The notes under the pieces are model-generated. The model was not told where the DNA came from. It ran no database searches and saw only the letters and a list, made by a program, of their open reading frames with translations. Positions 7,735 through 41,073 of a DNA stretch of 46,297 nucleotides are shown one piece after another; position 1 is the stretch's first letter; every line of letters begins with the position of its first letter. Both the position numbers and the translations under genes were made by a program. This DNA comes from Halanaerobiales bacterium (GTDB lineage Bacteria; Bacillota_F; Halanaerobiia; DY22613): positions 1 through 46,297 of the forward strand of contig JAGMES010000023.1 of NCBI GenBank assembly GCA_023128035.1, written 5' to 3'.

Positions 7735-7766
7735 CAATCTTACCTCCTAAATAGCCACATTTTTAA

Positions 7767-9374: not shown

Positions 9375-9407
9375 TATATCTCCTCCAAAATGATAAATCT
9401 TTTTTCA

Positions 9408-19472: not shown

Positions 19473-19505
19473 TTTAATCGCCTCCTAGTAACGGTAAAAC
19501 ACAAT

Positions 19506-22500
19506 TCAACAGACATTATTCTGAAACTCAATATATTCAACAGTTTCAGCTGTCTTTTCCCAATTTGTTCTTAAAAGAAACTCTTTTATCTGTAAATTTT
19601 TCGCAGTTGGGTAATATCGAGTAACCAATGTACTTAACTGTTGTTTTCGACCATACTCTTGAAAATATTTAATAATCCTATCTTCTACCCGTCTGCCAAG
19701 TACTCTGCAACTGAGTAAGAAAGTTTCCAAAAATAGAGTATGATTCTCTTCAATGGTAATCACCACTCCTACCAATCCATAGTCACCAAAGCGATCAGTA
19801 ACTTCAATCGCCCAACAGTTTACACCGTCTTTTTCCTGGAGTTTGGATAGATCAGCTTCACTTCTACGAATAGTGCTAAGATTAAATTGATTGGTTCGCA
19901 TCGTCAGTTGTGACATCCTACTAAGTTGATCTGGAGTAACCAGATGAATCTGAACCTGCAAATCAAGGGTTTGGATAAAATCCTCCAAAGAACCACATTG
20001 CTGTTGGACAACCTGCCGTGCTTTCTCACTTCGATACATCTGATTCCGTTTCTGATCCTCAACAGTAACATGCACTCTATCAAATTCCCAAGTATGAGCT
20101 AAGAACAGTGGAATCTCCTCAGCATCTGGCAACTGCATTGTTAATACCTCAGGACAATTTGCCATCACTTCCGCACATTCTACTGGACTATCATCAATAA
20201 AGATAAAACTATCAATACCCAAATTCAATTCTGCAGCCAATTCACATAAATTCTGCGACTTAGCATTCCAATTTATTCGCCAGCTGATAAAATTCTCTTT
20301 TTTAAGAATCATCTGAGGATTTTTTTCAAAAACCTCTAAAACATCAGTTTCATTATTTTTGCTACACAGACATAGCAACAATCCCTCATTATATTTTTGC
20401 AACATAAATTGTTGTAATTCAGCATAAGGTTCCTCCATTTGAATCCCATTTACTCCATCTTCACCACAGATTCCCTTCCACAATGTATTATCACAATCTA
20501 GAACAATCACCTTATACTTTTGATTATTTAAAGAAAATATCTTTCGAGTAATCCATTGACCCATGGCTGCATAAAATTCATCAGAAAATGGTATATGGCC
20601 TTCGCGATCTTTGATCCAATCAAAAATCTCCTCTATGCCATATAAATCTTGTAAGACCCGAAAATCGATCAAATGAAGATTGCTGATCTTAGAGACTGCT
20701 TCTTGCCAACGTTGATTTAGATCACGTAAACAGCTCATGACTTGGGATGAATATTCCAGGTGTTCAGAGACTGGGAAGATACCAGCAAAATAAATAGCTG
20801 TTTTCTCTTTTGTCGAGATAATTTGGATCAATTCTGCAAAAACATTTTTTAACTTTGCACATTTTTCTAAATCAGAACCATAATCATTTCGAATAAAATC
20901 TTCAAACCGAACCAGTAAAAGATTCACTCCCTGGTTTCTGGAAATGATACTGCTGGGATCTAACAACTCCTGAAAAACTTGATGATAGGGAGAGAATTTG
21001 ATGTCAAGATTGAGATTGACCTGTTTTCCCCACCAGCTAATATATGGTTTAATTGGTTCTGCAACAAAGGTGGCAGCAACCGCTACTTGGATAAGTTTTT
21101 CCTGTGGCTGACAGTGACCAGTTCTCTTTTCTATTAATTCTTCTTTCTCCTCTGCAGAAAAGATTTGGATTGCTGTTAAGCTTTGTGCAGGATTTGTAAT
21201 ACATTCTGTCACCAATTTTTTAAATTTTTCAATCAGTTGGTACATTGTTTCTTCCTTAAATAACTCAGTATCATACTGTAAATAACAGTTCATCTCACCA
21301 GCATGATTCAGGTGCATATCCAGTTTTAAATCCAAAGTGGTAGTATCTTTTTGCATCAGATATTCGGTAAACTTTAAACCTGCAACTTCCAGTTTTACAT
21401 CCATCTCGATCTGATTATGGAAAATCAACATAGTATCAAAAAGTAGGTTTCGTGAATGATCAGTAGGCAGATCTAAATCTTCGACGATCTTCTCAAAGGG
21501 ATAGTCTTGATTAGCATAAGCTGCAACCACACTCTCCCGAATTGAATCTAAAAATTCCGAAAATATACTATTTTCGTCCACTTTGACCTTAATAGGCAAA
21601 AAGTTTGCAAACATGCCAATCACATTATATAGATCAATATGTTTTCTGCCTGCAACTAAAGACCCGATCACCAGTTCTTGCTGGTCAGTATATTTATTAA
21701 GCAAAAGACTGTATAGAGCCAACAGTAAAGTATTTAATGTTACATCCTTTTCTTTGGCAAATTTATCCAGTTGGCTGGTGATCTCTGCCGATAATGTAAA
21801 TGGTAGAACCTCACCAACATAACTACGCCGCTTGGGTCGTTCATAGTCTAAAGGCATTTCCAGGACAGGTATATCCCCTTTCTGTGTCTCCTGCCAATAC
21901 TCAGCTTGCTTTTGACACTCTGCTGATTCAAAAAACTTGTTTTGCCATTCAGAGAAATCTTTATACTGAATCTGCAGATCTGAAAGTTCTTCACCATTAT
22001 ATAACCTGGCAAACTCTTTCATGAGAATCCCTTTTGAGACCCCGTCAGAGATAATATGATGCATATCTACAGCCAATATATGTTTCTCTTCATTTACCTG
22101 AATTAACCCAGCCCAGATAAGAGGTGGTCTTTTCATATCGAATGGTTTTACAAGACTTGGAACAACCATCTCTACATTTTCTTCATCGACTTCCAGATAT
22201 TCTAGCTTAAAATCAACATCATCAAAAATCTTTTGTTTTATCTCTCCATCAACCATCACAAAACTAGTCCGAAAAGCTTCATGTCTTCCAATTAGAGTTT
22301 TAAAGGCTGTCTCAAAACGTCCCTGATCAATCTTTCCATCTATCTGAATAACAAAGGAAGTATTGTAATGGGTGCTCTGATCTGCTAATTGATGTAGTAT
22401 ATACATTCTCTTTTGAGCAGAAGAAACTGAGTAGAACTCTTTCTCCTCAGCTTTCTCGATGGCTGCAAAGGATGTTGGGCTTTCCGCCTGGATATACCTG

Positions 22501-24269
22501 GCCAGAATTTCAATACTTGGATTTTTCAAGATTTTAGCCAAAGGTACATTGACATTATACTCCTGATAGATTAAAGAGATTAGCTTCATGGCATTAAGGG
22601 AATGGCCACCGATATCAAAAAATCTAGCATCCATACTGATCTCATCAATCTCTAAAACCTCTGACCAGATTTTAGCTAATTTAGCTTCAACATCATTTCG
22701 TGGTGGGATATAGTTGGCCCGACTTATTATATCTGACTCTGGCAGTAAGTTTTGATCAACCTTACCATTTAAATTCAATGGTAAATGATCTAATAATATA
22801 AAGTGTTGTGGGAGCATATAGTCAGGCAACTTCTGTGCCAGATAATCACGAAAAATACTTACTTTAGTATCAACATCTCCATTTGACACAATATAAGCAA
22901 CCAGGACATTATTCCGTTCTTTGATCTCACGATTAAGTACATAAGCAGTTTTGACCAGTTGATGGCTCAAAAGAAGATTCTCAATCTCAGATAATTCTAC
23001 TCGAATCCCTCTAATCTTGATTTGACGATCTGCTCTACCAATGAACTCAATATTTCCATCCAGAAGTAATCTTCCCAGATCACCAGTACGATAGATCAGG
23101 TCATTAGGGTCCTGATTGAATGGATTCGGGATAAATTTTTGCTCAGTCAATTTTGGATTATTAAAATATCCATAGGTTCGAAAAGGAGTACGAATATAGA
23201 TAAATCCTACTTTTCCTGGCCCACAGATCTCCATATCTTCATTAAGAATAATTGCCTTTGCTCCTTTGATTGGTTTACCAATAGGGATATTGCTTTTCTC
23301 CACATCTTCAACGCTTATCCGATAAAATAGCTTGAACAGAGTTGTTTCAGTTGGCCCATATGCATTAACTAGTTGAATACGATCTGCAAAAATATTGTAC
23401 CAGTTTTGCAGTTCTTTCGGGATCACCCGTTCACCAGCCAGCAGAACATATTTGAGTTTTGAAAAACTTTCACTGTGCAAAGTAGGAGAATTAAATAAGG
23501 TGAATAAACTAGGTGTACAATGTATCAGATTCACTCCACTCTGCTCAATCCAATTAATCAATCTAGCTGAATCCAAAATTGTTTCTTTACTATTTGGAAC
23601 ACACACAGTTCCACCAATACATAAAGGAATAAAGATATCTCGCAAGAACGGGTCATGACATGGTGAGGTTAACTGACTCACCTTAGTAGTTTCGGTTAGC
23701 TCAAATTCATCAATCTCCCAATGGATAAAGTGATGTAGTCCCTTGTTATTACCCAAAATAGCTTTTGGAACACCAGTAGTTCCAGAAGTAAAATAAATAT
23801 AGATTTTATCAGCAGGTGTGTATCCAAGATGTCCTATCTCCTGATACCAATCAGGATTAGCCAGATAAAAATCTTCATCTATACAGACCTGCTGTAAATT
23901 GTTCTCTGCAGTTAACTCTCTCGCCTGTAGCCAGGTCTCCTGGTCAGTAAAAATATATCTACACTCAGCAGTAGAGATCATCACTTGAGTTCTCTTTAGA
24001 GGGTAGTTCGGCTCTAAGGGGACAAAGATACACCTTGCTTTGAGAATCCCGATAATCAGTGTAATCAGTTCCACCTTATCTACTACAAAGATGCCTATTG
24101 AAGATTCCTGTGAAATTCCTTGTGCTAAAATCCAGTTTGCGATATAATTGCTTCTTTGAGCCAGTTCTCCATAACAAATTTTTTTATCTTTATAGTCTAT
24201 AGCAACTTTGTCAGGGTAGTTTTCAAAAATATAGTTTAGCTTGGCCTGCAAAGTTTTACTTCTATCCAT
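19506..24269 (-). CDS. NRPS-C: A - T - C - FkbH-like HAD domain
   Basis: A 1587-residue protein starting at an ATG 7 bases after AGGAGG and 12 bases after the NRPS-B stop. It begins directly with an A domain (about 1-505), with no half C in front. The A domain is atypical: A2 reads LKARCIFVPLEP, and the FDxSVxE segment is replaced by HDPFLRDIF. Specificity residues read D-P-R-H-L-A-A-L-F, and I cannot assign a substrate. T (FFDIGGHSL) and C (about 600-1030, DMHHIISDG) follow. The last roughly 540 residues are a complete FkbH-like region: an N-terminal SGNH-like part, then a HAD core with VLDCDNTLWKG (D1258, D1260), IDDSPVE, RTNQFNLS and FGDYGLVGV. FkbH proteins load D-glycerate from 1,3-bisphosphoglycerate onto a carrier as a thioester. 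The carrier needed is the first domain of NRPS-D. The C domain here would then join the growing chain to glycerate, most likely as an ester. Confidence 0.95.
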   Translation of the reverse strand: MDRSKTLQAKLNYIFENYPDKVAIDYKDKKICYGELAQRSNYIANWILAQGISQESSIGIFVVDKVELITLIIGILKARCIFVPLEPNYPLKRTQVMISTAECRYIFTDQETWLQARELTAENNLQQVCIDEDFYLANPDWYQEIGHLGYTPADKIYIYFTSGTTGVPKAILGNNKGLHHFIHWEIDEFELTETTKVSQLTSPCHDPFLRDIFIPLCIGGTVCVPNSKETILDSARLINWIEQSGVNLIHCTPSLFTLFNSPTLHSESFSKLKYVLLAGERVIPKELQNWYNIFADRIQLVNAYGPTETTLFKLFYRISVEDVEKSNIPIGKPIKGAKAIILNEDMEICGPGKVGFIYIRTPFRTYGYFNNPKLTEQKFIPNPFNQDPNDLIYRTGDLGRLLLDGNIEFIGRADRQIKIRGIRVELSEIENLLLSHQLVKTAYVLNREIKERNNVLVAYIVSNGDVDTKVSIFRDYLAQKLPDYMLPQHFILLDHLPLNLNGKVDQNLLPESDIISRANYIPPRNDVEAKLAKIWSEVLEIDEISMDARFFDIGGHSLNAMKLISLIYQEYNVNVPLAKILKNPSIEILARYIQAESPTSFAAIEKAEEKEFYSVSSAQKRMYILHQLADQSTHYNTSFVIQIDGKIDQGRFETAFKTLIGRHEAFRTSFVMVDGEIKQKIFDDVDFKLEYLEVDEENVEMVVPSLVKPFDMKRPPLIWAGLIQVNEEKHILAVDMHHIISDGVSKGILMKEFARLYNGEELSDLQIQYKDFSEWQNKFFESAECQKQAEYWQETQKGDIPVLEMPLDYERPKRRSYVGEVLPFTLSAEITSQLDKFAKEKDVTLNTLLLALYSLLLNKYTDQQELVIGSLVAGRKHIDLYNVIGMFANFLPIKVKVDENSIFSEFLDSIRESVVAAYANQDYPFEKIVEDLDLPTDHSRNLLFDTMLIFHNQIEMDVKLEVAGLKFTEYLMQKDTTTLDLKLDMHLNHAGEMNCYLQYDTELFKEETMYQLIEKFKKLVTECITNPAQSLTAIQIFSAEEKEELIEKRTGHCQPQEKLIQVAVAATFVAEPIKPYISWWGKQVNLNLDIKFSPYHQVFQELLDPSSIISRNQGVNLLLVRFEDFIRNDYGSDLEKCAKLKNVFAELIQIISTKEKTAIYFAGIFPVSEHLEYSSQVMSCLRDLNQRWQEAVSKISNLHLIDFRVLQDLYGIEEIFDWIKDREGHIPFSDEFYAAMGQWITRKIFSLNNQKYKVIVLDCDNTLWKGICGEDGVNGIQMEEPYAELQQFMLQKYNEGLLLCLCSKNNETDVLEVFEKNPQMILKKENFISWRINWNAKSQNLCELAAELNLGIDSFIFIDDSPVECAEVMANCPEVLTMQLPDAEEIPLFLAHTWEFDRVHVTVEDQKRNQMYRSEKARQVVQQQCGSLEDFIQTLDLQVQIHLVTPDQLSRMSQLTMRTNQFNLSTIRRSEADLSKLQEKDGVNCWAIEVTDRFGDYGLVGVVITIEENHTLFLETFLLSCRVLGRRVEDRIIKYFQEYGRKQQLSTLVTRYYPTAKNLQIKEFLLRTNWEKTAETVEYIEFQNNVC
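19509..21152 (-). other. FkbH-like glyceryl-loading domain (inside NRPS-C)
   Basis: HAD-IIIC/FkbH region at about residues 1040-1587. Conserved elements are the DxDxT-type motif DCDNTLWKG, CSKNN, the RINWNAKS segment, FIDDSPVE, MRTNQFNLS and DRFGDYGLVGV. All expected FkbH blocks are present, so it is probably active. It lies downstream of a C domain inside the assembly line instead of acting as a starter or in an extender-unit cassette, and its carrier is on the next protein. Confidence 0.9.
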
Positions 24270-24281
24270 TTCTTAAACCTC

Positions 24282-27200
24282 CTAATACTCATAATCTAAA
24301 TCATCATTAAAACTATCCAAAAGGTTTGCAGTTGCTTTTGCAGAAATCAATTCTATCTCAGCCAAATTAAACTGTGGATTATCAATAATTCTCCTCAAGA
24401 TATCCAAATAGTCTTGATAAAAGGTCTCCATTGTTTTAGCTTTGAACAACTTAGTCGAATACTCCAATCGGAAATTAATCTGCTGATCAACTTCACTGGC
24501 AGACAGACTTAGATCAAACTTAACTGCATTTCTCTCATACTCATAGTCATAAATTTTTAGATTACTGATGTTTTTTTGGATCTGAGATAACTCATGTAAA
24601 TTACCCATATTCTGTAGCATAAATATTGTGTCAAACAACGGATTTCGACTCTGATCCTTTTTGATCTTCACTTGTTCAACCAGGTCTTCAAATTGATAAT
24701 TCTGATTATTAAAAGCATTCAATGAGTTTTTCCTTACTTCTGCCAAAAATTCTTGAAATGTTTGAGATTTTTCTAATTTGTTTTTAATAGCAATAGTGTT
24801 AATAAATACACCAACAATGCCCTGAAGATTTACATGAGATCTTCCAGCAATAGGAACCCCTGCAACTATAACTGAATTTCCACTATATTTATACAGTAGC
24901 AGATTGTGAGCTGCCAATAAAATCATAAATAAAGTAGCATTGTGTTCTTTTGCAACTTGATTTAACTTCTCGGTCATCTCACCCTCTACTGAAAACTTTA
25001 TTACAGAACCTGCGTAGCTTAGCACCTTTGGACGAGAAAAATCAGTAGGTAGATCCAGAACCGGAATTTCATCTAAAAACTGATCTAACCAGTATTGTTT
25101 TTGCCTTTGTAATTCTTCACTTTCTTGCATTTTTTGCTGCCAAATGGTATATTCTTTATACTGAGCCTTTAATTGCGGTAATTTCAGGGTATTTTTACTT
25201 TTATATAACTCCAACAACTCATTAATAATAATTTGCATAGATACACCATCTGAAATAATATGATGCATATCCAGCATAAAAAGATGTTTCGACTCAGCCA
25301 ACTTAACCACTTCAGCTCGCAGTAATGGAGTTTGTATTAAATCAAATGGACGAATAAATGCCTGTACTTTCGCGTCAACTTCTGATTCATTAACTTGACT
25401 ATAGGCCAGACTAAAGTTTACCATAGCATGAATCTTTTGCTTAGGGTTTCCCTGAATCATCAGAAAACTAGTTCTTAGAGATTCATGTCGCTCAATAAGA
25501 ATCTTTAACCCCTTGGTCAATAATTCTACCTCTAATTCACCCTCCAAAACCAAAATGGCTGGCATATTATAAGTTAAACTTTGTGGATTTGACTGATGAG
25601 CAATATACATCCGCTTTTGAGCAGAAGATAATGGATAATAATCCTGTTCTTCTACTGGTTCGATAGGGGCATAGTGACTTTTCCTTGCAGCCATCACATA
25701 CTCAGCCATCATTTTAACTGTTGGTCTTTTAAAGACCTCTGTAAGAGGCATTTTGATATTCAATTCTTGATGAACCTTAGAAAGAAGTGTCATCGCCTTC
25801 AAGGAATGACCACCTAGTTCAAAAAAGTTTTCCCCAGTTCCAAACACTTCTTTGATTGCTAAAACTTCTTTCCAAATTTTTAGTAATATCTCTTCAGTCC
25901 TATTTTCTGGTGCCTGATAGGTTTTTCCTATAAAAGCAACGGTATCTGCTTCACGTAACCATTGGCGATCTATCTTGCCATTTTTAGTTAAAGGCAATTG
26001 CTTTAAATTCGTAAAATAAACAGGAATCATATATTCTGGTAATTGCCGTGTTAGGAACTTTCTAATCTCTGAAGTTGTTAACTCTCTTTCTACGACAATA
26101 AAGGCTGATAAATACTTATCTCCATTATCATCTTCTTTTATAACAACTGCTGCTTCATATATATCTGGATATTTTTGCAACTGACTTTCGATTTCGCCAA
26201 TCTCGATTCTGAACCCTCTTACTTTAACCTGATGATCCTTCCGACCCAGGAATTCTATATCTCCAGTAGGTGTCCAGCGGGCTAAATCTCCTGTTCGATA
26301 CATCTTCTCTTCTGGCTTAAAAGGGTTAAGAATAAATTTTTCTACGGTTAACTGAGGTCGATTTATATAGCCTCTACCCACATTGGCACCGCTGATACAT
26401 AATTCTCCAGGTACACCAATAGGCATTAACTCCATATCTTCACTCAAAATATAAATACCTGTATTAGAGATTGGCTTACCAATCGGTGGAATAATCGGAT
26501 AACTACTTCCAGGTTCCAGAGTAAAGGTTGTGACTACATGAGTTTCCGATGGGCCGTAATGGTTATGCAAATATACCTGATTTATCTGCAAGAATTCCTT
26601 AAATAAGTCAGAGATCAAGAGTTGTTCACCAGCAGTGATAATGTGTTTTACCGACTTAGGAAAATGCTGCATATATTCTTCAAAAGCAGTGATGAATTTT
26701 AAAAAAGCAGTTGGCCAGAAAATAACTTCAATCTTGTTCTCCTTAATAAAGGAGAAGAGTTGTCCCACATCTTTTTTCAGATCTTTATTGATCAGATATA
26801 AGTTACCTCCAGAGAGCAGAGTTGAAAAAATCTCCTGAAAAGATACATCAAAACCGATAGGAGCAAACTGAAGTACCCCTTTAGTAAAATCTATATCTGT
26901 TTGGGTGAACTCATGCTGCAATAAATTAACAAGATTGCGATGTTCTAACATAACACTTTTCGGTTGTCCAGTAGAGCCAGATGTGGAAATCAAATAAAGC
27001 AAATCATCTGGTTGGCTAAAACTTCCAGGATTTTCTGTGGATTGTTCAGCTAATTGCTCAGAGATCTGATCAAAACAGATTATCTCACGATTTAGTCTCT
27101 TCAAGCTCTCTTTCTCCTCTTGATTGATAAAGGCTAGACCTGGAATATTCTGCAAGACCTCTTTTGCAGGCAGTTTATTACCATTTTTTATGATCTCTCC

Positions 27201-29876
27201 AATCAAATGAGTGAAAGTAATCTCGCCTTCGCCCAAGACTGCAAGATCCACATGGTGATCTTGCAACATACTGGAGTAATCACTTGTAGCATAAGGCCCA
27301 CCAGCTATAATAGGAACATCTATTCCCCACTGTCCAATTAGTGACACTGCTTTATGAAAAAATTCCTTATAAATTGACAAGGTCCGAATTCCAATCACAT
27401 CTGGTTGAAAATTTTTGATAAATGATTGCATCTGGTCATAACTCTTAAATTCACTTCTGGATTTACCAATCTTCCCAACTATATCGCTGCCAAATTGTTC
27501 TTTTAAATATGTTAAGAGATACATCAGCCCAAGAGGTTCGCCCAGCACATCATACATCATATTATTACTTTCATCAATAAACCATTGGGACAAATCTAAC
27601 AACAATACACGCAGTGCTGTCTTACTGGCTAGTTCTGGTACTGGGAAGTATTTTTTAATCTTTTCATTAAACTCAGGAGCAGCCATCTGCTCATCCTTAA
27701 GCAATTTGGCATTACCTAATTCATCCCAGGTAATATCAGCAAAGTGCAGAATATCGGTAAAGCTCCGAATATCAATAGGTAAATAACTATCATATTTTTG
27801 CACCAGCTCATCTTCTGTTAGTATCTTCATCTGCATCGGTAGGACATGTAACAAGCGCTCTTTTAGTAGAAAATATTCTTTCATATACTTAACCTGAAAT
27901 TGTCTGGTAAAACTTTTGGGAAACGGTAATGTTTCTGGCAACTGGTGGAAAGCCAGGTGAGTGGAATTTTTAATACTTTCACGGGAAACACCATTTTCCA
28001 GAGCTAACTGATACATCTCCGTATTAGGAAAGATCTTCAGTATATTTAAGTTAGGAAAATGAATCCACTTCACACTCTGCATAAATTCAAATGTTTTCAT
28101 GGCTTCCTCTTCAGTCTCTGTTGGGAATCCATGCATCATCTCCATCTCCAGAATTACATGTGGATGTTGCTGGGCCAAATATTGAATATTTTCCTGTAAA
28201 CGTTCCAGGTTAACATTCTTTTTTAAAAGTTTCTGAATACGAGGAGATGCTGACTCTAAGGCCAGGTCGATGTTGACTGTACCTGCTTCCACCATCAAAT
28301 CAATATAATCCTTGGTTAGAATATCTCCTCGCAAACCATTGGAAAAGAAAAGTTGTAGATCAAGACCATTTTTCAAAATTAACTTTAGTAACCTGCTACT
28401 ATTCTCCACATCTAGATTAAAAATATCATCTATGAAAACAAATCTGCAAACACCAGCATTATAACAATATTGAATCTCTTCAAAAATGTTCTCAGCACTT
28501 CGAACTATATGTTTTTTTGGCCAGATTTTGTGACAATAGAGACAATTAAAGGGGCATCCCCTGGTAGCTTGCAGTGAAACAGTATGTTTCGCTGGAGCGA
28601 TCCCAATATAATTGAAATACTTACTGTAATCAATGAGCGTCCGATCTGGTTTCGGTAATTGGTCAAAATCTTTAATCGGTTCACGATAGGAAGTAACCAC
28701 TGGCTTAATCCCAAAATTATTCAAACTCTGTAAAGTAGTAAAAGAATGTTGCCTGATCGTCTTTTCTTTGGTCAATAAAAACTGAGCTTGGCTATCATCA
28801 AGAATAGTAACAATCCGACTGATGGGATATTCATAGTCAACTGGCAGATACGCTCCACCAGCTTTTAATATTCCCAAAATACCAACTATCAAGTCTATGG
28901 AAGATTCCATCATAATTCCCACTACACTACCTGTTTTGACTCCCTTAGCAATCAAAATCTGAGTCAATTGATTTGCCTGTTGATTTAACTCTTGATAGGT
29001 TATTTTGTGCTCTCCCATTACAACTGCTATCTTATTAGAAGTTCTCTCAACCTGTTCTTCAAATAACTTATGAATAGTAACATCTGTTGGAAATACCCTC
29101 CTGGTTCGAATGAAGTCATCCAATAATAATTGTTTTTCTTCAGGAGAGATGATTTCAATCTTTTCCAAAATTTCATTAGGATTAGCGAATGCCTGTTTTA
29201 GAATGTTAAGATACTTAATTCCAATTTGTTCAACAGTGGTTTTAGCATATAAATTAGCATTATACTTAACCATACATTCGATCTCCTGATCTTTCTGCAA
29301 GAAGGAAAAGATCATGTTGGACTGTAGATGTTCAATATATTTTTCAGCATGAATGTTTCTCAACATGCAGACAATATCAAATAAACTAGAACACTTTAAT
29401 TGCTCAACTAACACTTCATAGGGATAATTTTGGTTCTCATTTGCATCCATTAGAGTTTTTCTAACCTGTAAAATGAGATCTTTAAAACTCAAATCGCCAG
29501 ATATCTGATTACGCAGTGTCAGAACAGTATTGATAAACTCCCTTTCTATCTCCTGGCGATAAATTGGTGATCCAATGATAATATCTTGCTGTTTGGTGTA
29601 CTTATAAAGCAAAGTGATCAAACCAGCAGTCAAAATCATATGGAGTAAAGAGTTAGAGCCGTTGGACATTTTCATCAGTTTTGCGGCTAGCTGTCCCTTT
29701 ATTGTAAAATCTAAATTTTGCAGTTGATTGCCCTTAGTATCTATATTATTATTAAAATCGTATGGAAAACTAGTTTTAGTTAACTCGCCTTTCAATTGAT
29801 TCAACCAAAATTCTTTTTCTTTTACATGTTGAATGGCGGCAACCTTTAATTTTCTAGTTAGTTTTTTATCAACCAC
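24282..29876 (-). CDS. NRPS-B: half C - A[radical SAM + B12] (Pro) - T - C
   Basis: A 1864-residue synthetase. The start is GTG at 29876, 7 bases after an AGGAGG that overlaps the previous stop codon. Layout: the C-terminal lobe of a C domain only (1-250, from KEFWLNQLKGE, no HHxxxDG); A-domain N part (260-370, A2 LKAGGAYLPVD); an insert of about 570 residues (372-940) with radical SAM then B12-binding regions; A3 (STSGSTGQPK, 964-973) and the rest of the A domain; T (Ser1358 in FFELGGHSL); a full C domain (about 1395-1830, DMHHIISDG); and an acidic tail (DDLDYEY). Specificity residues read D-V-Q-I-I-A-H-V-V, one conservative change from the classical proline code DVQLIAHVV. The module therefore probably activates proline, and the embedded enzyme may methylate or otherwise modify it. 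I know of no described NRPS with this arrangement. Confidence 0.96.
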   Translation of the reverse strand: MVDKKLTRKLKVAAIQHVKEKEFWLNQLKGELTKTSFPYDFNNNIDTKGNQLQNLDFTIKGQLAAKLMKMSNGSNSLLHMILTAGLITLLYKYTKQQDIIIGSPIYRQEIEREFINTVLTLRNQISGDLSFKDLILQVRKTLMDANENQNYPYEVLVEQLKCSSLFDIVCMLRNIHAEKYIEHLQSNMIFSFLQKDQEIECMVKYNANLYAKTTVEQIGIKYLNILKQAFANPNEILEKIEIISPEEKQLLLDDFIRTRRVFPTDVTIHKLFEEQVERTSNKIAVVMGEHKITYQELNQQANQLTQILIAKGVKTGSVVGIMMESSIDLIVGILGILKAGGAYLPVDYEYPISRIVTILDDSQAQFLLTKEKTIRQHSFTTLQSLNNFGIKPVVTSYREPIKDFDQLPKPDRTLIDYSKYFNYIGIAPAKHTVSLQATRGCPFNCLYCHKIWPKKHIVRSAENIFEEIQYCYNAGVCRFVFIDDIFNLDVENSSRLLKLILKNGLDLQLFFSNGLRGDILTKDYIDLMVEAGTVNIDLALESASPRIQKLLKKNVNLERLQENIQYLAQQHPHVILEMEMMHGFPTETEEEAMKTFEFMQSVKWIHFPNLNILKIFPNTEMYQLALENGVSRESIKNSTHLAFHQLPETLPFPKSFTRQFQVKYMKEYFLLKERLLHVLPMQMKILTEDELVQKYDSYLPIDIRSFTDILHFADITWDELGNAKLLKDEQMAAPEFNEKIKKYFPVPELASKTALRVLLLDLSQWFIDESNNMMYDVLGEPLGLMYLLTYLKEQFGSDIVGKIGKSRSEFKSYDQMQSFIKNFQPDVIGIRTLSIYKEFFHKAVSLIGQWGIDVPIIAGGPYATSDYSSMLQDHHVDLAVLGEGEITFTHLIGEIIKNGNKLPAKEVLQNIPGLAFINQEEKESLKRLNREIICFDQISEQLAEQSTENPGSFSQPDDLLYLISTSGSTGQPKSVMLEHRNLVNLLQHEFTQTDIDFTKGVLQFAPIGFDVSFQEIFSTLLSGGNLYLINKDLKKDVGQLFSFIKENKIEVIFWPTAFLKFITAFEEYMQHFPKSVKHIITAGEQLLISDLFKEFLQINQVYLHNHYGPSETHVVTTFTLEPGSSYPIIPPIGKPISNTGIYILSEDMELMPIGVPGELCISGANVGRGYINRPQLTVEKFILNPFKPEEKMYRTGDLARWTPTGDIEFLGRKDHQVKVRGFRIEIGEIESQLQKYPDIYEAAVVIKEDDNGDKYLSAFIVVERELTTSEIRKFLTRQLPEYMIPVYFTNLKQLPLTKNGKIDRQWLREADTVAFIGKTYQAPENRTEEILLKIWKEVLAIKEVFGTGENFFELGGHSLKAMTLLSKVHQELNIKMPLTEVFKRPTVKMMAEYVMAARKSHYAPIEPVEEQDYYPLSSAQKRMYIAHQSNPQSLTYNMPAILVLEGELEVELLTKGLKILIERHESLRTSFLMIQGNPKQKIHAMVNFSLAYSQVNESEVDAKVQAFIRPFDLIQTPLLRAEVVKLAESKHLFMLDMHHIISDGVSMQIIINELLELYKSKNTLKLPQLKAQYKEYTIWQQKMQESEELQRQKQYWLDQFLDEIPVLDLPTDFSRPKVLSYAGSVIKFSVEGEMTEKLNQVAKEHNATLFMILLAAHNLLLYKYSGNSVIVAGVPIAGRSHVNLQGIVGVFINTIAIKNKLEKSQTFQEFLAEVRKNSLNAFNNQNYQFEDLVEQVKIKKDQSRNPLFDTIFMLQNMGNLHELSQIQKNISNLKIYDYEYERNAVKFDLSLSASEVDQQINFRLEYSTKLFKAKTMETFYQDYLDILRRIIDNPQFNLAEIELISAKATANLLDSFNDDLDYEY
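27057..28763 (-). other. Radical SAM + B12-binding insert between A2 and A3 (inside NRPS-B)
   Basis: The insert covers about residues 372-940 of NRPS-B. The radical SAM part comes first, with a CX3CX2C cluster at Cys441, Cys445 and Cys448 (TRGCPFNCLYCHKIW), LESASPRIQKLLKKN and HGFPTETEEE. A B12-binding part follows (about 755-915): LGEPLGLMYLLTYL, PDVIGIRTLS, IAGGPYATSDY and LAVLGEGEITF. Ordinary B12 radical SAM methylases have the B12 domain first. The linker pieces usually adjacent in those enzymes are here at opposite ends: PKPDRTLIDY before the radical SAM part and IPGLAF after the B12 part. This is what a circular permutation would leave. All three cluster cysteines are intact. Confidence 0.9.
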
Positions 29877-29887
29877 TCCGATCCCTC

Positions 29888-32800
29888 CTAAAAAACAAAA
29901 TCAATATCGTCAAGTGTATTACTCTGCACTTCTAATACATCTTGAGATATCTGCACATCATCTAAGACAATTGCTCGATTTTCAACTACCTGACGTAAAA
30001 CTTCAACATAGTTATTGATGATCTCTTCTGCTGTGGACTCACTAAATAAGTGTATAGCATAAGTTAGCACAACATTTAAACCATCTTCATCTTCAGAAAT
30101 ATTTAAAATAAGATCATACTTAGCAACTGTATCTTCAAGTTCATATGGATAAATTGTACAATCATTTAACTCTAAGGTCTTGGTATTGGTATTCTGGAGT
30201 ACGAAAATAGTATCAAATAATGAATTTCTGCTTAAATCACGCTTAATATCCAGTTGTTCAATCAGTTCTTCCAATGGATAATCTTGATTCTTAAAAGCAT
30301 TCAAAGAGTTAATTCTTACCTCTTGCAAGAACTCACTAAAAATTTTCTTTCCCTGTGGTTGATTCTTCATGGCCAGAGTATTGACAAACATACCTACCAC
30401 ATGTTTCAGATCAATATGAGAACGTCCAGCAACTGGTGAGCCAATAATGATCTCTGTTTGGCCTGTGTACTTATATAATAAGATCGTATAAGCAGCTAAA
30501 AGTACCATATACTGTGTTGCATTAGCTTCTTTCGCAAATTGATTGATCTGGTTTCTCAAATCATTATCGACTAGTCTCTTAACACTATTTCCAGTAAAGA
30601 GTTGCTTTTCGGGTCGTGGGAAATCAGTTGGCATCTGAAGGACTGGAATTGATCCACTCAAGGTGTTTAGCCAATATTTCTCCTGCTCGCGAATCTCAGG
30701 ATTTGCTAACATCTCTTGCTGCCATATAGTATAGTCTTTATATTGAATGTTTAAGCCTGGCAGAACCTGTCCGGCATATAATTTAGCAAATTCCTCAATC
30801 AAAATTCCAATTGAAATACCATCAGCAATAATATGATGCATATCCACAATCAAGATATATTTCTCCACTGTTACTTTCATCAGACCAACATTAAACAAAG
30901 AAGCTCGACTTAGATCAAATGGAGAGATAAAAGCTTTAACCTCTTCATCTACATTTGCTGAATTACTCTCAAAATAATTTATCTTAAAATCGATCTGGCT
31001 TTTGATTTTTTGAACAGGCTTTCCATCCTCAAGTACAAAATAGGTCCTTAAGCCTTCATGACGATTAATTAGTTGGGTAAAAGCATTCTCCAACCTGGCT
31101 CTGTCTACTTGTCCTTCTAGGATAGTGACAGATGGAATGTTATAATTAATATTCAGATCATCTAACAGACTGACAATATACATTCGTTTTTGAGCAGATG
31201 ATAATGGATAGCTAGATCTTTCTTCAACTTTTTTAATAGATTTGTAAATTGTTTTCTTTATATTGCTTATAAAAGTTGCCAATTTTTGGATGGTTTGCTG
31301 TTTAAAAATCTCCACCAGTGGCACTTTAACATTTAACTCTTTGTGTATTCTGGCAACAATGGTGGTAGCATTCAATGAATGACCACCTAGATCAAAAAAG
31401 TTGTCATGTCTTCCGATTTTTATCGCAGGGGCTAAAATATCTCGCCAGATCTCTGCCAGTTTTTCTTCTACCTGCCCAGAAGGTGGCACAAATTCCGTAT
31501 TACTACTAGCTCCCACCTCTGGTTCTGGCAGTGCTTTGCGGTCAATTTTGCCATTTATAGATATTGGCAACTTATCTAACTGCACAAAGTAAGCAGGAAC
31601 CATATATTCTGGTAGTTCTTGAATCAAATAATCCTTTATCTCCTGAGAATCTAACTGTCTAGAGGAAATATAGTATGCACACAAAAATTTAGTACTACTA
31701 TTTTTTTCAGTTCTTGCAACTACTAATGCTTCTTGAATAGCATCATGCTCTAAAAGGTGACTTTCGATCTCCCCAAGTTCAATTCTAAAACCTCGAATCT
31801 TCACCTGATGATCTCTCCGTCCTAAAAATTCCATATTACCATCTTCAAACCAGCGAGCAATATCACCAGTTTTATAAAGTTTTTCACCTGGACAATAAGG
31901 ACTGTCAATAAACTTGGCAGCAGTCAATGTTGGATCATTGATATAACCTTCTGCTAAACATTCCCCCCCAATATATAAGTCGCCAGCTACACCTATTGGG
32001 CAGAGGTTTAATTTATGATCTAAGATATAGTACTTAGCATTTTGAATCGGCTTTCCATAAGGAATACTAGGCCAAGTTGGTTCAATTTTTCCAATGGGGT
32101 AATAGTTGGACCAGATAGTAGCCTCAGTAGCTCCACCTAGACTAATGACTTCTACACCTGGAAATGCCTTACGCAAGAGATCTGGCATAGGTACAGATAT
32201 CCAGTCTCCACTCAAAAAGACACGCCGTAATTTGCTCTGATCAGCCAAATGCTGTACATTAGGGAAAAATGGTACTAGACGTTGTAAAGCGGCTGGAGCA
32301 GAATCCCAGAAGGTGATCCCTTCATTGAAAATGATCTCTAGTAAATGATTCGGCTCCTTCATCTCTGCCTTTGATGCAATCCGAATACATCCTCCTGTCG
32401 CTAAAATTCCAAATACATCATAAACTGATAGATCAAAACTCAATGAGGTCAGGAACAAAATCTTATCTGAACTATTTACACCAAAGGTACGGTTAACCCA
32501 TTCGATAACATTGATCACCAGCCGATGTTTTACAACAACACCTTTAGGAGTACCTGTAGACCCAGAAGTAAAGATTACATAGGCAATATCTTCGGATGTT
32601 GAGATTTTTAGCAGATTTTCTGTTGAATTGTGCTGAAGTTGGTCTGCAAAAATCAAATTCTTATTTTTAAACAGAGCTTCTTCCACCTGAATCTGATCAC
32701 TGGTTGAATTGATACAGAAAATATGTTTAACCAGACAAGTATTTTGGGATATTTGCCCAATCAGCGGTAGAGTTGAATTATCTGTCACTAAGCAATTCAC

Positions 32801-35800
32801 CTGTAAAGAATCAAGGATTTTTAAGATTCTGTTCTCTGGAAGGCCTGGCTCTAACGGCAGATATGATCCACCTGCTTTACTAATCCCCAGCAATCCGACA
32901 ACCATCTCTACACAGCGGTCAATAATGATGCCTGTAAAGGTTCCCGGTTGTACCCCATGTTTACATAATTCGTGGGCCAACTGGTTTGCCCGTTGGTTCA
33001 ATTCCCGATAAGTCAAACACTGATTACCCTGTTGGACTGCAATATTGTCTGGCGTTTTTGTAACCTGTTCTTCAAAGAGTTGATAGATTGTTTTGTCTCT
33101 TGCATAATCCAGTTTTGTATCATTAAACTCAAAAAGAAGTCTTTGTTTTTCTACATCAAGTAAGATAGCATTTTTGACCATAGAAGATTCAGGTTCATAG
33201 ATAAATTTGTTCAAAACTCTGATATAGTACTTACATAATTTATCAATATCCTCATCCTTAAACACTGTAGTTACATATTTAGGACATAAGACTAAAGTAC
33301 CATTGGTAATATTAACCTCAAAATCAAAGATGGTGTTGGTATTCTCACTTCCTGTGATAGCATAATCATCACCCCAGAAACCTGATCCACCTTGGTACAT
33401 TTCTTTAACAATGTGAAAATCCATAAAGTTAAAGATGGTGTCAAATATTGGGTTACAATCAATATTCTTCTCACCTATTATTTTTCCGATCTCAAATAAA
33501 GGTATGCGATCAAAGATTTTTACTTCCAGTAATTTTTTATCAACCTTTTTCACAAAATCGATCCAGTTCAAAGTATCTTCAACCTTTAGCCTAACGGGAA
33601 CTGTATTCAAAAAACAACCAAGGATCTTGTCCCCATCTTCAGATTCTGGTCTAGTATTAGTTACAATTCCCATTACCAGATCATTCTCATAGGAAATCAT
33701 ACTCAACATATATACATAAGCGGCAAAACACAAGTTTTTGACAGTTGTATTATACTTTCTAGCCTGAGTCTGAAGTTTATCCAAGAAGGATTCGCCCATA
33801 TCTTTGATATACTTTTTCATTAAACCAGAACCAGTGGGATTTTTGTACATACCAGAAAAATCTAATCGCTTATAATCCATAAGCTCATTTTTCCAATACT
33901 CATAACCCTTACTATCCTGTTTCTGTAAAAGTTCTTCCACAATTGCATCTTTATAAGTTGCTTTTAATGGTTGGAGGACAACAGACTGCTGTGACTCTAA
34001 TGCTGTATAGATATTATGTAACTCTGTCATCAGTAAAGAATTACTCCAGCCATCCAAAATAGCATGGTGAACAATCCAAACCAGACAGATGTTTTCATCG
34101 TTGAGAGCAAATACCCGCATCCGCCAAAAATATTTGTCCTCAAGGGTAAATGGATGCTGTCTATCTTGAACAAGAAAATTCGTAATATAGGTCTCTTGTT
34201 CTGTTTTAGTCAGATAGGAAAGGTCTTCAAACTGGATGTCTTCAGGAACTTTTCTGTATACAATCTGTACAGGTTCTTCGAAATCTTCCATATTGAAGCC
34301 TGTTCGTAAAATAGAGTGTTTTTTCACCATTAAGTTAAAAGCTTGTTTTAAAATGGCAAAATCAAAATTAGTCTTATACCAACCTGTCACAAACTGATCA
34401 TGATACACTGCTGTGTCTACATTTTTCAGATATAAAAAGATCATTCCTTTTTCTATATCAGCTAGTGGGTAAAGATCAACGATCTCGTCAGTTAATTTGT
34501 TAGTAGCAAAGATTCTATTTTTTAGTTCTTCCATCTGTTGCAAGATAGATATTTTTTCCCTTTGCAGGTCTTTTGTAACAGAGTTTAGAATAACTTTTGC
34601 TAACTCTGCGATAGTCTGATTTTGATACAAATCTGCAATTTTGATGTCTGTATCAAGTTGGTTATTGATCATGCTAATCACCCGAATAGCCTTAATGGAA
34701 TCACCACCTACATCGAAGTAATTGTGGTTGATTCCAATATTCTTACTATTCAGAATCGTCTCCCAAATCTGTACCAGTTTTTCTTCAACCTCATTAGTTG
34801 GAGCAACATACTCTATCCCTAAATCCAAATTGCCCTGTATCTTAAGTAAAGCTTTACGGTTTGCTTTTCCATTTGAAGTTAAAGGAATTTCGTCAATTTG
34901 CACAAAATTAGAAGGAACCATATATTGAGGTAAACGAATAGTTAGGTATTCGCGAAGTTCAGAGACTGTCAAATTTTTATCACTGACGATGTATGCACAT
35001 AAGTATTTTTCTCCATTAGAATCTTCGTTGACCAACACAACCGCCTGCTGGATATTTTCATGTGTTTGCAACAAGTTCTCTATCTCACCAAGTTCAATGC
35101 GGAAGCCTTTGATTTTTACCTGGTTATCTGTCCGACCTAGGTATTCCATCTCCCCATTCTCCAGAAGTCGGGCTAGGTCACCAGATTTGTATAATTTTTC
35201 TCCTGGTTTGTAAGGATTATCAATAAATCTTTCTGCTGTCAATTCAGGGCGATTGAGGTACCCTCTAGCTACACCGTCTCCACCCACATAAATTTCACCA
35301 GGTACACCAATTAGTAACAAACGCTGCTTGGAATCCATAATATAGGTAGTCACCGTTGGCAGTGGTTTACCAATATTAGTAATGTTCATAGCTAAATCAC
35401 TATCAGTGATATCTTTAAAGGTCACATGTACAGTTGTTTCGGTGATTCCATACATGTTAATTAACTTTGTCTCTTGATACCTTTCTTTCCAAGGTCTTAA
35501 GTGGGTGAAGCGTAATGCTTCTCCACCAAAAATTACATATTTAATTGAAAGTTTCCTGACCGGATGCCTAGAATCCTCATCAATCAAATTGTAAAAAGCA
35601 GATGGAGTCTGGTTTAAAATAGTCACCTGTTCAGTTTCCAAAAGGTTGAGAAACTTTTCTGGCTCTCTAGCAACCATTTTGGGGATAACAATTAGTTTGC
35701 CACCATACAAAAGTGCGCCAAACATCTCCCAGACTGAAAAATCAAAACTAAAGGAATGAAACATCACCCAAACGTCAGTTTCATCAAATTTCATTGGAGC

Positions 35801-37717
35801 CTTTTCATTGATTAGTAGTCTGACTACATTCTTATGTTCCAGCATAACTCCCTTGGGATTTCCAGTTGTTCCAGATGTATAGATAATATACACTAGATCA
35901 TTGGCAGTATTAATATTAAGAAGATTACTGCCATTAAGATGATAACTAGCAGGATCATCTAGTTTGATAACTTCTAGTTCCAAATCAGTATAATCAACTT
36001 GTATCTTTCTGGTGGTAAGCAAAATATCAGTTTCGCTATCTTCAAGCATGAATCTGATCCGTTCTTCTGGTAATTCAGGATCAATTGGCAAATATGCTCC
36101 GCCAGCTTTTAAGATAGCCATAATCCCGACAAACATTTCTAAAGAATTTTCTACCATAATGCCGATGATAAACTCACTTTGAACTCCCTTGTCACGTAAA
36201 GTTCGGGCCACTTGATTTGCTCTGGTATTTAACTCCAGATAGGTTAACTGCTCTTCTGAAAAATCAACTGCTACATGGTTAGGGTATTTTTCAGTTATAG
36301 CTTCAAATATCGTGTGGACTGTTTGATCAACAGGGTATTCGGCATGGGTATCATTAAATTCATCTAATAACTGTTTTTTCTCTTTCGCTGTCAACATCTC
36401 AATGGTATCAATTTGTTGGTCAGGATATCGGAGAATAAATTGCAAGATACCCTCAAAATGTCGGGCAATCCCTTCTATTGCCTCCGGCTTATACTTATCT
36501 TTGTTGAATACAACATCCAGTATCAGTTCATCAAAGGTTTCGACAACAAGAGTTAGATCATAGTTAGTCCTCTCATCAAGATGATAGGATTGGATCACCA
36601 GAATATTATTATTTCCTTTTAAAGCTTTATCAAGAGGGTAATTCTCAATGACCATAACTGAGTCAAATAATTCAGAACTACCAGTAATACCACTATATCT
36701 TTTGATATCTACCAGTGAAGATGTTTCATACTCTACACGCTCCTGGATCAGTTCATTAATCTGCTGTAACAGTTCAGAGATTTGATTATTGGTGTGAAAG
36801 GAAACCCGCAGAGGTAATGTATTAATAAAAAGTCCTACAATCTTTTCCACATCTTTGAGTTTCACATTTCTCCCTGATACAGTGGTACCAAAGACTACCT
36901 CTTGGTTACTTGTATATTGATGAAGCACTAGTGCCCAGACAGTATAAAAAAGTGTCGCCAGAGTAATTTTTTGCTCACTGACAAATGTCTGTATTTCCTG
37001 ATTGAGACTTTCAGAAAATTTTAATCTATAGCGTTCGATTATCTTATCTCCAGTATTATCTCTGGAGGTAATAGGCAATATAGTATGGGTTTTAAAATCA
37101 CGAAACATTGCTTTCCAGTATGATTCTTCACTGGTTTTATCTCTACCTTGAACAAATTTAATAAACTCTTTAAACTTTGTTCTGGAGAGAAGCGAAAAAT
37201 CTTTATTATTAGCAAAAGCTATGTATGTATCATAAAAGTCTTTTAAAATTATCCCATTACTCCAGCCGTCATATAAAATATGATGATTACTTATGATAAT
37301 TTCAAATAACTCATCTTCAATCTTGCATAAACTGATTCTAAATGGAACCTCTTGCAGGTCAAATCTTTTTTTCTTATCAGCGATTTTGATCTCTTGAAGT
37401 AACGTTTCTTGTTCATATCCAAATGTGGAAGTAAGATCAAAAAAGGTAACAAGTGGTTCATGCTTCTTTAAAACGATCTGTACAGGTTGTTTTACCTTAT
37501 CCCAGCGAAAGACGGTTCTAAGCATTTCGTGGGAATCAACTACATTATTCCAAGCTTGCTGAAAAAGATTCAACTGGACTGGCCCAGCTACTCGAATTGA
37601 CAATTGTTCAAAATATTGATCACTCTCAGGCTCCTTTAAATAGTAAAATAACATGCCTTCTTGCATTGAAGTTAGAGCGAGCATATCGGCAATATTTTCT
37701 CGGTCTATTATACTCAT
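29888..37717 (-). CDS. NRPS-A: C - A(Thr) - T - C - A(Cys-like) - T - C
   Basis: A 2609-residue synthetase, probably the first elongation protein of the line. ATG at 37717 follows GGAGAT. Order: C (1-440, NHHILYDGWS), A (about 455-965), T (YFDVGGDSI), C (1085-1510, VHHAILDGWS), A (1525-2065), T (FFDLGGHSL), C (from about 2168, DMHHIIADG) and an acidic tail (LDDIDFVF). The first A domain reads D-F-W-N-I-G-M-V-H, the standard threonine code. The second reads D-L-Y-D-F-S-L-I-W, seven of nine matching the cysteine code DLYNLSLIW. The N-terminal C domain has no visible upstream synthetase; it may be a lipid-accepting starter domain or take a unit from a protein outside the window. The first two C domains differ in style (HHILYDGWS/HHAILDGWS) from the HHIISDG/HHIITDG/HHIIADG domains elsewhere. 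Confidence 0.95.
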   Translation of the reverse strand: MSIIDRENIADMLALTSMQEGMLFYYLKEPESDQYFEQLSIRVAGPVQLNLFQQAWNNVVDSHEMLRTVFRWDKVKQPVQIVLKKHEPLVTFFDLTSTFGYEQETLLQEIKIADKKKRFDLQEVPFRISLCKIEDELFEIIISNHHILYDGWSNGIILKDFYDTYIAFANNKDFSLLSRTKFKEFIKFVQGRDKTSEESYWKAMFRDFKTHTILPITSRDNTGDKIIERYRLKFSESLNQEIQTFVSEQKITLATLFYTVWALVLHQYTSNQEVVFGTTVSGRNVKLKDVEKIVGLFINTLPLRVSFHTNNQISELLQQINELIQERVEYETSSLVDIKRYSGITGSSELFDSVMVIENYPLDKALKGNNNILVIQSYHLDERTNYDLTLVVETFDELILDVVFNKDKYKPEAIEGIARHFEGILQFILRYPDQQIDTIEMLTAKEKKQLLDEFNDTHAEYPVDQTVHTIFEAITEKYPNHVAVDFSEEQLTYLELNTRANQVARTLRDKGVQSEFIIGIMVENSLEMFVGIMAILKAGGAYLPIDPELPEERIRFMLEDSETDILLTTRKIQVDYTDLELEVIKLDDPASYHLNGSNLLNINTANDLVYIIYTSGTTGNPKGVMLEHKNVVRLLINEKAPMKFDETDVWVMFHSFSFDFSVWEMFGALLYGGKLIVIPKMVAREPEKFLNLLETEQVTILNQTPSAFYNLIDEDSRHPVRKLSIKYVIFGGEALRFTHLRPWKERYQETKLINMYGITETTVHVTFKDITDSDLAMNITNIGKPLPTVTTYIMDSKQRLLLIGVPGEIYVGGDGVARGYLNRPELTAERFIDNPYKPGEKLYKSGDLARLLENGEMEYLGRTDNQVKIKGFRIELGEIENLLQTHENIQQAVVLVNEDSNGEKYLCAYIVSDKNLTVSELREYLTIRLPQYMVPSNFVQIDEIPLTSNGKANRKALLKIQGNLDLGIEYVAPTNEVEEKLVQIWETILNSKNIGINHNYFDVGGDSIKAIRVISMINNQLDTDIKIADLYQNQTIAELAKVILNSVTKDLQREKISILQQMEELKNRIFATNKLTDEIVDLYPLADIEKGMIFLYLKNVDTAVYHDQFVTGWYKTNFDFAILKQAFNLMVKKHSILRTGFNMEDFEEPVQIVYRKVPEDIQFEDLSYLTKTEQETYITNFLVQDRQHPFTLEDKYFWRMRVFALNDENICLVWIVHHAILDGWSNSLLMTELHNIYTALESQQSVVLQPLKATYKDAIVEELLQKQDSKGYEYWKNELMDYKRLDFSGMYKNPTGSGLMKKYIKDMGESFLDKLQTQARKYNTTVKNLCFAAYVYMLSMISYENDLVMGIVTNTRPESEDGDKILGCFLNTVPVRLKVEDTLNWIDFVKKVDKKLLEVKIFDRIPLFEIGKIIGEKNIDCNPIFDTIFNFMDFHIVKEMYQGGSGFWGDDYAITGSENTNTIFDFEVNITNGTLVLCPKYVTTVFKDEDIDKLCKYYIRVLNKFIYEPESSMVKNAILLDVEKQRLLFEFNDTKLDYARDKTIYQLFEEQVTKTPDNIAVQQGNQCLTYRELNQRANQLAHELCKHGVQPGTFTGIIIDRCVEMVVGLLGISKAGGSYLPLEPGLPENRILKILDSLQVNCLVTDNSTLPLIGQISQNTCLVKHIFCINSTSDQIQVEEALFKNKNLIFADQLQHNSTENLLKISTSEDIAYVIFTSGSTGTPKGVVVKHRLVINVIEWVNRTFGVNSSDKILFLTSLSFDLSVYDVFGILATGGCIRIASKAEMKEPNHLLEIIFNEGITFWDSAPAALQRLVPFFPNVQHLADQSKLRRVFLSGDWISVPMPDLLRKAFPGVEVISLGGATEATIWSNYYPIGKIEPTWPSIPYGKPIQNAKYYILDHKLNLCPIGVAGDLYIGGECLAEGYINDPTLTAAKFIDSPYCPGEKLYKTGDIARWFEDGNMEFLGRRDHQVKIRGFRIELGEIESHLLEHDAIQEALVVARTEKNSSTKFLCAYYISSRQLDSQEIKDYLIQELPEYMVPAYFVQLDKLPISINGKIDRKALPEPEVGASSNTEFVPPSGQVEEKLAEIWRDILAPAIKIGRHDNFFDLGGHSLNATTIVARIHKELNVKVPLVEIFKQQTIQKLATFISNIKKTIYKSIKKVEERSSYPLSSAQKRMYIVSLLDDLNINYNIPSVTILEGQVDRARLENAFTQLINRHEGLRTYFVLEDGKPVQKIKSQIDFKINYFESNSANVDEEVKAFISPFDLSRASLFNVGLMKVTVEKYILIVDMHHIIADGISIGILIEEFAKLYAGQVLPGLNIQYKDYTIWQQEMLANPEIREQEKYWLNTLSGSIPVLQMPTDFPRPEKQLFTGNSVKRLVDNDLRNQINQFAKEANATQYMVLLAAYTILLYKYTGQTEIIIGSPVAGRSHIDLKHVVGMFVNTLAMKNQPQGKKIFSEFLQEVRINSLNAFKNQDYPLEELIEQLDIKRDLSRNSLFDTIFVLQNTNTKTLELNDCTIYPYELEDTVAKYDLILNISEDEDGLNVVLTYAIHLFSESTAEEIINNYVEVLRQVVENRAIVLDDVQISQDVLEVQSNTLDDIDFVF

Positions 37718-40953: not shown

Positions 40954-41073
40954 GAACATCACCCTTCTACATTTTTTTCTGATACCTTATATTAATTCGC
41001 TTATTTTTTTTTTACTCCTTCTTTATCTTAGGTAAAATAAGACAAAAAATATAAAACTAAAGTGTAGAGTCGA

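Follow-up and report, generated by a model that had tools for sequence, protein, structure and literature searches.

A permuted radical SAM/B12 unit inside a proline-type adenylation domain, and its recurrence in nonribosomal peptide synthetases

The window analysed here is a stretch of 46,297 nucleotides from a Halanaerobiales bacterium (contig JAGMES010000023.1, assembly GCA_023128035.1). It carries a run of nonribosomal peptide synthetase (NRPS) genes on the minus strand. One of them, NRPS-B, is a single uninterrupted open frame of 1864 residues. Its adenylation (A) domain is split by an insert with a radical S-adenosylmethionine (radical SAM) domain and a B12-binding domain, and is accompanied by condensation (C) domains and a peptidyl carrier protein (PCP) domain. 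The features of NRPS-B are as follows.

24282..29876, minus strand: NRPS-B; C-terminal half of a C domain, interrupted A domain, PCP, C domain
29121..29828, minus strand: half condensation domain at the N-terminus; Pfam profile positions 191-456 only, no HHxxxDG motif
28755..29093, minus strand: N-terminal part of the A domain, through A2 (LKAGGAYLP) to LLTKEK; from alignment with five uninterrupted A domains
27102..28754, minus strand: insert, a circularly permuted radical SAM/B12-binding unit of about 551 residues
28083..28568, minus strand: Radical SAM domain of the insert (PF04055, Pfam)
28533..28556, minus strand: CX3CX2C motif (C441, C445, C448), identical in 236 of 236 aligned rows
27627..27926, minus strand: mostly helical extension between the two insert domains; limits set by us
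27204..27542, minus strand: B12-binding domain (PF02310, Pfam), C-terminal to the Radical SAM domain
25947..27101, minus strand: C-terminal part of the A domain (A3 to A10), proline-type code
25695..25889, minus strand: PCP of the interrupted module (Pfam)
24318..25646, minus strand: downstream condensation domain with HHIISDG (Pfam)
24285..24323, minus strand: C-terminal tail LLDSFNDDLDYEY, resembling the tails of many free-standing relatives

Both domains of the insert score above the Pfam cutoffs: Radical_SAM at residues 437-598 (64.3 bits, cutoff 29.5) and B12-binding PF02310 at residues 779-891 (44.1-45.9 bits, cutoff 32.1). The AMP-binding match is split into two stretches, the better one at 942-1170, and PP-binding and Condensation follow downstream. 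Alignment with the five uninterrupted A domains, all from the same window, positions the insert at residues ~375-925, between '...QFLLTKEK' and 'REIICFD...'. The insertion point is the A2-A3 interval, with A2 before the insert and, of the motifs checked after it, A3 to A8 and A10 all in place. NRPS-B has the two marks of an interrupted A domain, namely intact core motifs on both sides and an auxiliary domain of catalytic type in a2-a3. An earlier note, made from the letters of the window alone, had proposed such a unit with an intact CX3CX2C and a B12-binding region between A2 and A3 of an otherwise complete A domain. All these points hold. The position that it gave for the insert, 27057-28763, is right in location, with ends off by about 15 and 3 residues. 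In the predicted structure, the A domain folds normally and closes around the insert, contrary to the failure to close that the note had named as an objection. NRPS-B starts with the C-terminal lobe of a C domain only, although a full C domain already closes the upstream protein NRPS-A; our 59-row alignment has a consensus that starts in this way too.

The specificity code of the NRPS-B A domain is of the proline type. Under the convention that gives GrsB1 the code DVQLIAHVV, the reading D-V-Q-I-I-A-H-V-V made in the earlier note holds. It agrees with aligned GrsB1 at 8 of 9 positions. The nearest solved relatives are also of the proline type: for the A4-A5 stretch, GrsB1 and tyrocidine synthase 2 are the only two solved A domains at E 1e-15 or better, and GrsB1 is the best fold match for the A domain model. 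Unlike NRPS-B, both have uninterrupted A domains.

Canonical enzymes of the B12-radical SAM type carry their B12-binding domain N-terminal to the radical SAM domain. The NRPS-B insert has the reverse order, with radical SAM first and B12-binding last, a feature that escaped the earlier note. Among the traits of class B radical SAM methylases, it has the CX3CX2C motif and a B12-binding domain, the latter not in N-terminal position. The same permuted order (radical SAM, extension, B12) was found by BLAST in all 241 of the proteins collected as described below. A motif check gave radical SAM then B12 in 231 of 236 units, the other five lacking the B12 pattern. The canonical order is seen in the window's own open reading frame (ORF) 7767-9374, in a sequence denoted L086 and in L001, where seven genes, by their sequence canonical B12-radical SAM enzymes, stand in tandem at positions 1-10319.

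Five of the seven L001 ORFs compared align to the insert as two pieces in swapped order; in one of them, insert 22-264 matches residues 153-400 and insert 410-548 matches residues 18-149. L086 shows the same pattern (insert 32-309 to 172-453; insert 384-546 to 1-156). If the two halves of the insert are exchanged, the alignment score against these five L001 ORFs rises from 393 to 534, 408 to 578, 395 to 524, 371 to 530 and 361 to 454. The remaining two gain less (181 to 204 and 209 to 224), and the score against ORF 7767-9374 stays at 115. The five L001 ORFs and L086 are the nearest canonical relatives among the sequences compared. They share IDDIFN, PNGLR and GGPYATSDY-like stretches with the insert and 35-39% identity in the radical SAM part; in contrast to it, they have the B12-binding part first and are separate genes outside NRPSs. 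A further protein, P0002, is a 1122-residue tandem of two permuted units. From this tandem and the tandem row of L001, we infer that the permuted unit arose by fusion within such a row. Two adjacent canonical genes would have fused head to tail, the inner radical SAM-B12 pair would have been retained, and this pair may later have been placed into NRPS modules.

The fusion recurs widely, which the earlier note had also missed. A first protein search gave 806 matches at E 0.001 or better and a search with the insert alone gave 953; 120 of each were listed, and these 240 matches together with the window's protein make up the 241-protein set. The unit is flanked by both A-domain halves in 119 of the 241, by the N-terminal half only in 27, by the C-terminal half only in 4 and by neither in 91. 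Source names among the matches listed include Candidatus Aminicenantes, Acidobacteriota, Ruminiclostridium, Planctomycetes, Omnitrophota, Deltaproteobacteria and Desulfobacula, mostly as metagenome bins. In the class of G001 (Acidobacteria bacterium), 7 of 142 genomes match, with 70 matches in total. Of these, 34 lie in the 10.4-Mb genome G1080 and 18 in another genome, a few matches being two pieces of one copy. The 34 matches of G1080 fall in open frames of 637-6151 residues. None of 396 genomes drawn from the phylum of G001 (E 1e-70) and none of 299 drawn from that of G013 (E 1e-50) matches; in the phylum of G003, 1 of 297 genomes drawn does, and this match is canonical in order. The sparse draws and the clustered copies therefore indicate a family that occurs in few species but in many copies in some of them. 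A scan of contigs with two generic peptide patterns, used for the choice of outgroup genes and genomes and not for distribution, showed distant relatives only among the 80 matches listed (24-35% identity). A tblastn search of plasmids gave 1 record (36% over 42% of the query), and viral contigs gave no match.

We built a tree of the insert from 241 rows (236 units and 5 outgroup sequences); contig fragments may account for some of the rows that lack A halves. It does not support a simple story of a single origin of the fusion: 27 changes to or from the fused state are needed, at least 16 of them by the starred branches. The rows that branch deepest under the canonical outgroup carry the free-standing label; their placement is weakly supported, and P0233 among them may retain a decayed A half. 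Over the 236 rows, 61 positions are at least 97% identical and the cluster cysteines are invariant. Median identity is 58% for the insert (62% for the radical SAM part, 56% for the B12 part), 50% for the A core, 47% for the N-terminal A part, 45% for the PCP and 36-38% for the C domains. As the proteins were collected by similarity to the insert, this comparison is biased toward it and we do not rely on it.

The earlier note's reading of a proline module stands as far as a B12-type unit in a complete proline-type A domain is concerned, and is too narrow in that the unit also occurs in A domains of other types, in-line and free-standing. Among 123 A domains behind a unit, 69 carry a proline-type code by our pattern, 37 carry other assigned codes, 16 are unassigned, several being close to the proline code, and 1 is gapped. 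By their signatures, the 37 are of Ile, Thr, Leu, Val, Glu/Gln or Asp/Asn type. The code tends to follow the insert tree: the 105 labelled rows need 21 code changes, against a mean of 34.8 and a lowest value of 32 in 200 shuffles. A 77-row insert clade, picked by script as the best among splits of 70-80 rows, holds 68 of the 69 proline-type codes; with a midpoint root, the proline clade has 66 of 69. As a further check, we took those unique interrupted units from genomes whose identity to every listed row is below 95%, which left 18 of 22. Of the five that fall in the proline clade, four are proline-type (the fifth reads DVHFVAFNA), compared with 0 of 13 in the other clade, where codes switch often under one insert type.

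We also compared the codes of interrupted and uninterrupted A domains. With the A3 pattern we recovered 79 A domains that are interrupted and 73 that are not; among the unique A domains, 24 of 78 and 41 of 73, respectively, have no assigned code. Codes for Gly, Ala, Ser or Cys make up 0 of 54 in interrupted and 7 of 32 in uninterrupted A domains (4 Gly, 3 Cys); this grouping was chosen after seeing the data, and the rows are not independent. Their absence from interrupted A domains is weakly in line with attack on a side-chain carbon.

To see how the unit is mounted, we fetched 17 regions around matches from the class of G001. They hold 22 units, all in frames with NRPS domains. Eighteen units interrupt an A domain; A3 or later motifs lie downstream of them, and A2 lies upstream where the pattern caught it. 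The other four are in-line, after a complete A domain and before a PCP (the 4053-residue frame of L107, the second unit of L108, L116 and L123). The interrupted form is found in 15 of the 17 regions and the in-line form alone in two (L116 and L123); fused modules occur consecutively in L110 and L117. In L107 and L116, the in-line unit lies within a second, decayed A domain, and its radical SAM part is still 64% and 61% identical to that of the window. No relic of an A domain was found around the in-line units of L108 and L123. Since the unit outlives its interrupted A domain and stays next to the carrier, we read this arrangement as a sign that it may act on a carrier-bound residue.

Free-standing units often end in an acidic tail. 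A tail like FNDDLENE closes 49 of the 88 free-standing units, whereas 7 of 4400 internal stretches look like it, and among the 119 fused proteins only that of the window has it. In the genome regions, a DFGF-like acidic tail pattern matches 5 of 5 separate radical SAM ORFs picked by script, 7 of 14 unit frames and 7 of 16 other NRPS frames. Both patterns were written after the tails had been seen. From these shared tails we infer that the enzymes may dock to the assembly line. Seven rows of 718-766 residues have an N-terminal A half and no C-terminal half; in both of those examined (P0126 and P0136), a seemingly decayed A half precedes the unit, which is followed by an NRPS-like tail.

Interrupted A domains have been described with methyltransferase, ketoreductase and oxidase inserts; what is new here is the sort of insert and the permuted enzyme. 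TioN and MarQ resemble NRPS-B in having a bifunctional A domain with an insertion between a2 and a3, and the methylating domains inserted in such A domains act on the residue bound to the carrier, after loading (PMC11355689; literature statements here and below refer to the available text of the papers cited). Their inserts are SAM-dependent S-methyltransferases, whereas NRPS-B has a radical SAM/B12 unit some 550 residues long. The words 'radical' and 'cobalamin' are absent from the main text of that review. CysS, TokK, OxsB and TsrM, which are among the solved matches of the insert, combine a CX3CX2C radical SAM domain with a B12-binding domain; the NRPS-B unit differs from them in having B12-binding after radical SAM and in being embedded in another enzyme. 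DscE provides cobalamin-dependent radical SAM C-methylation in an NRPS pathway, as a separate enzyme assayed on discodermins, with no indication of an A-domain location in the available text (PMC12858407). In that paper, the presence of a radical SAM C-methyltransferase homologue in an NRPS cluster is termed an unusual combination. Further NRPS pathways have B12-type radical SAM enzymes as separate proteins (PMC7966384, PMC7277169). The author of the earlier note knew of no NRPS with this fusion. In agreement, neither a fusion of radical SAM/B12 with an A domain nor a permuted B12-radical SAM enzyme was found described in the open-licence literature searched, as far as its text was available; both are likewise unnamed in the available text of PMC4811929, PMC10672896, PMC13311259 and PMC12654047.

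The A domain bearing the insert probably, though by no means surely, activates proline and C-methylates it on the carrier of its own module. In the mechanism that we propose, the A domain would load proline onto the PCP of the same module, and the insert would bind a [4Fe-4S] cluster, SAM and cobalamin. The 5'-deoxyadenosyl radical generated there would abstract a hydrogen from the prolyl thioester at an unactivated carbon (our guess is C-beta), and a methyl group would pass from methylcobalamin to the substrate. Precedents exist for several of these steps, among them TioN and MarQ for the insertion site and for methylation after loading, and DscE for C-methylation in an NRPS pathway. Proline is C-methylated by a radical SAM enzyme in bottromycin (PMC11285071), EreB C-methylates valines, with a tert-leucine peak (PMC9259500), and, judging from entry titles, CysS structures contain pantetheinylated substrates and the TokK title reads to '(2R)-pant'.

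Several observations weigh against on-carrier C-methylation of proline. The reversed domain order departs from a defining trait of class B methylases, and the insert reaches the cutoff of none of the 25 profiles listed. Two other radical SAM genes of the cluster could do the C-methylation instead. The tie between code and clade could come from block inheritance of insert and A core alone. Moreover, the four in-line inserts are nearest to non-proline rows, yet the A domain that precedes them (L107, L108, L116, L123) reads CVQYIAHVV, a proline-like pocket with Cys in place of the usual Asp. This Asp holds the amino group of the substrate. The four cases pull both ways: they do not track the code of the preceding A domain, which would suit a methylase that acts elsewhere (on the upstream peptidyl chain, on the residue of another module or on the finished peptide) and uses the A domain only as a mounting point, and they sit directly before a PCP, which would not. 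Such remote action would also explain the units without A halves, many with an NRPS-B-like tail, and the frequent code changes in the non-proline clade; DscE, which methylates discodermins in what is thought to be a late step, sets an example (PMC12858407). We nevertheless regard it as unlikely in view of the 68 of 69 proline-type codes of interrupted A domains in one insert clade and, with the reservations given above, of the lack of Gly/Ala/Ser/Cys codes.

A stronger competitor, which we still hold to be rather doubtful, is that the insert alters the loaded residue by a radical reaction other than methyl transfer. Candidates would be desaturation, dehydration, cyclisation, epimerisation, coupling and ring change, reactions of the kind carried out by OxsB, BchE, BipD or AprD4. 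AprD4, the nearest solved structure by sequence and by fold, is a dehydratase, the list of fold matches hardly covering the B12 half. The BchE and HpnJ profiles match the insert at 78 and 64 bits, and biaryl bond formation is catalysed by BipD, a radical SAM enzyme that contains B12 (PMC12707348). On the other side, the two best NCBIfam profiles, below cutoff, are B12-type methyltransferases, though to phosphorus, and most B12-dependent radical SAM enzymes in pathways of ribosomally synthesized and post-translationally modified peptides are described as methyltransferases (PMC12707348). That the insert is a degenerate or structural passenger without catalysis we consider very improbable, given the 61 near-invariant positions, the invariant cluster cysteines and the identity retained by the L107 and L116 units despite their decayed A domains. 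An assembly or sequencing error that joined two genes, which the earlier note had listed as an objection together with absence from related genomes, can practically be dismissed: the fusion recurs in independent sequences from many bacteria and is therefore no sequencing accident, being two-sided in 119 of the 241 collected proteins and present as an interrupted A domain in 18 of the 22 units from the 17 regions, with the other four in-line in NRPS modules.

More tentatively than for proline methylation in NRPS-B itself, we suggest that the permuted unit may be a standard, reusable NRPS part. It would be mounted within A domains that differ widely in specificity, or between A domain and PCP, with one lineage tuned to proline, and would C-methylate the newly loaded amino acid by radical chemistry on the assembly line. 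Bacteria with dozens of such modules might then make nonribosomal peptides with many C-methylated residues, so far known from the ribosomal polytheonamides. If so, methylation of unactivated carbons would enter the assembly line itself, C-methylated residues would become predictable directly from sequence, and the unit would be a portable part for engineering. A mining tool that reads such an A domain as plain proline would mispredict the product. How the B12 and radical SAM domains need to come together is a question for which the permuted order supplies a natural test. The system is of high interest because the proposed reaction lends itself to direct testing and because a few genomes employ the design on a large scale.

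The remaining genes of the cluster considered here are the following.

29888..37717, minus strand: NRPS-A, C-A-PCP-C-A-PCP-C, upstream neighbour of NRPS-B
19506..24269, minus strand: NRPS-C, A-PCP-C plus FkbH domain
10656..19472, minus strand: NRPS-D, PCP-C-A-PCP-C-A(methyltransferase)-PCP-C; second A domain also interrupted in A2-A3
13626..14057, minus strand: class I methyltransferase domain inside the second A domain of NRPS-D
9408..10544, minus strand: separate radical SAM gene; TIGR01210 (archaeosine enzyme RaSEA) 249.9, cutoff 212.15
7767..9374, minus strand: separate B12-binding/radical SAM gene of canonical order, 535 residues

The methyltransferase insert of NRPS-D starts past the strand that follows the radical SAM site of NRPS-B, so that the two sites are slightly different. 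ORF 9408-10544 is sited within the NRPS cluster despite its RaSEA score; it has no Pfam match at E 0.001. A 1037-residue ORF (37849-40962, minus strand) starts with a GNAT acetyltransferase domain; its remaining ~890 residues have no Pfam or NCBIfam match at the limits used. The FkbH domain forms the C-terminus of NRPS-C (19575-20516, minus strand; 304 bits, cutoff 146.65), and a carrier domain opens NRPS-D. An FkbH-like gene, at 28% to this domain, is also found in L086 (393-3878), where it and a methyltransferase-like gene flank the canonical B12-radical SAM gene (38% to the insert). Relatives of ORF 7767-9374 adjoin fused modules in 2 of the 17 regions: L111 3315-5027 (44%) and L121 6861-8642 (50%). 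In L114, the stretch 13039-19658 behind a fused module carries three genes of the B12/radical SAM type and one that matches Peptidase_U32, all with an acidic FDI/FDL-type tail like those of NRPS subunits.
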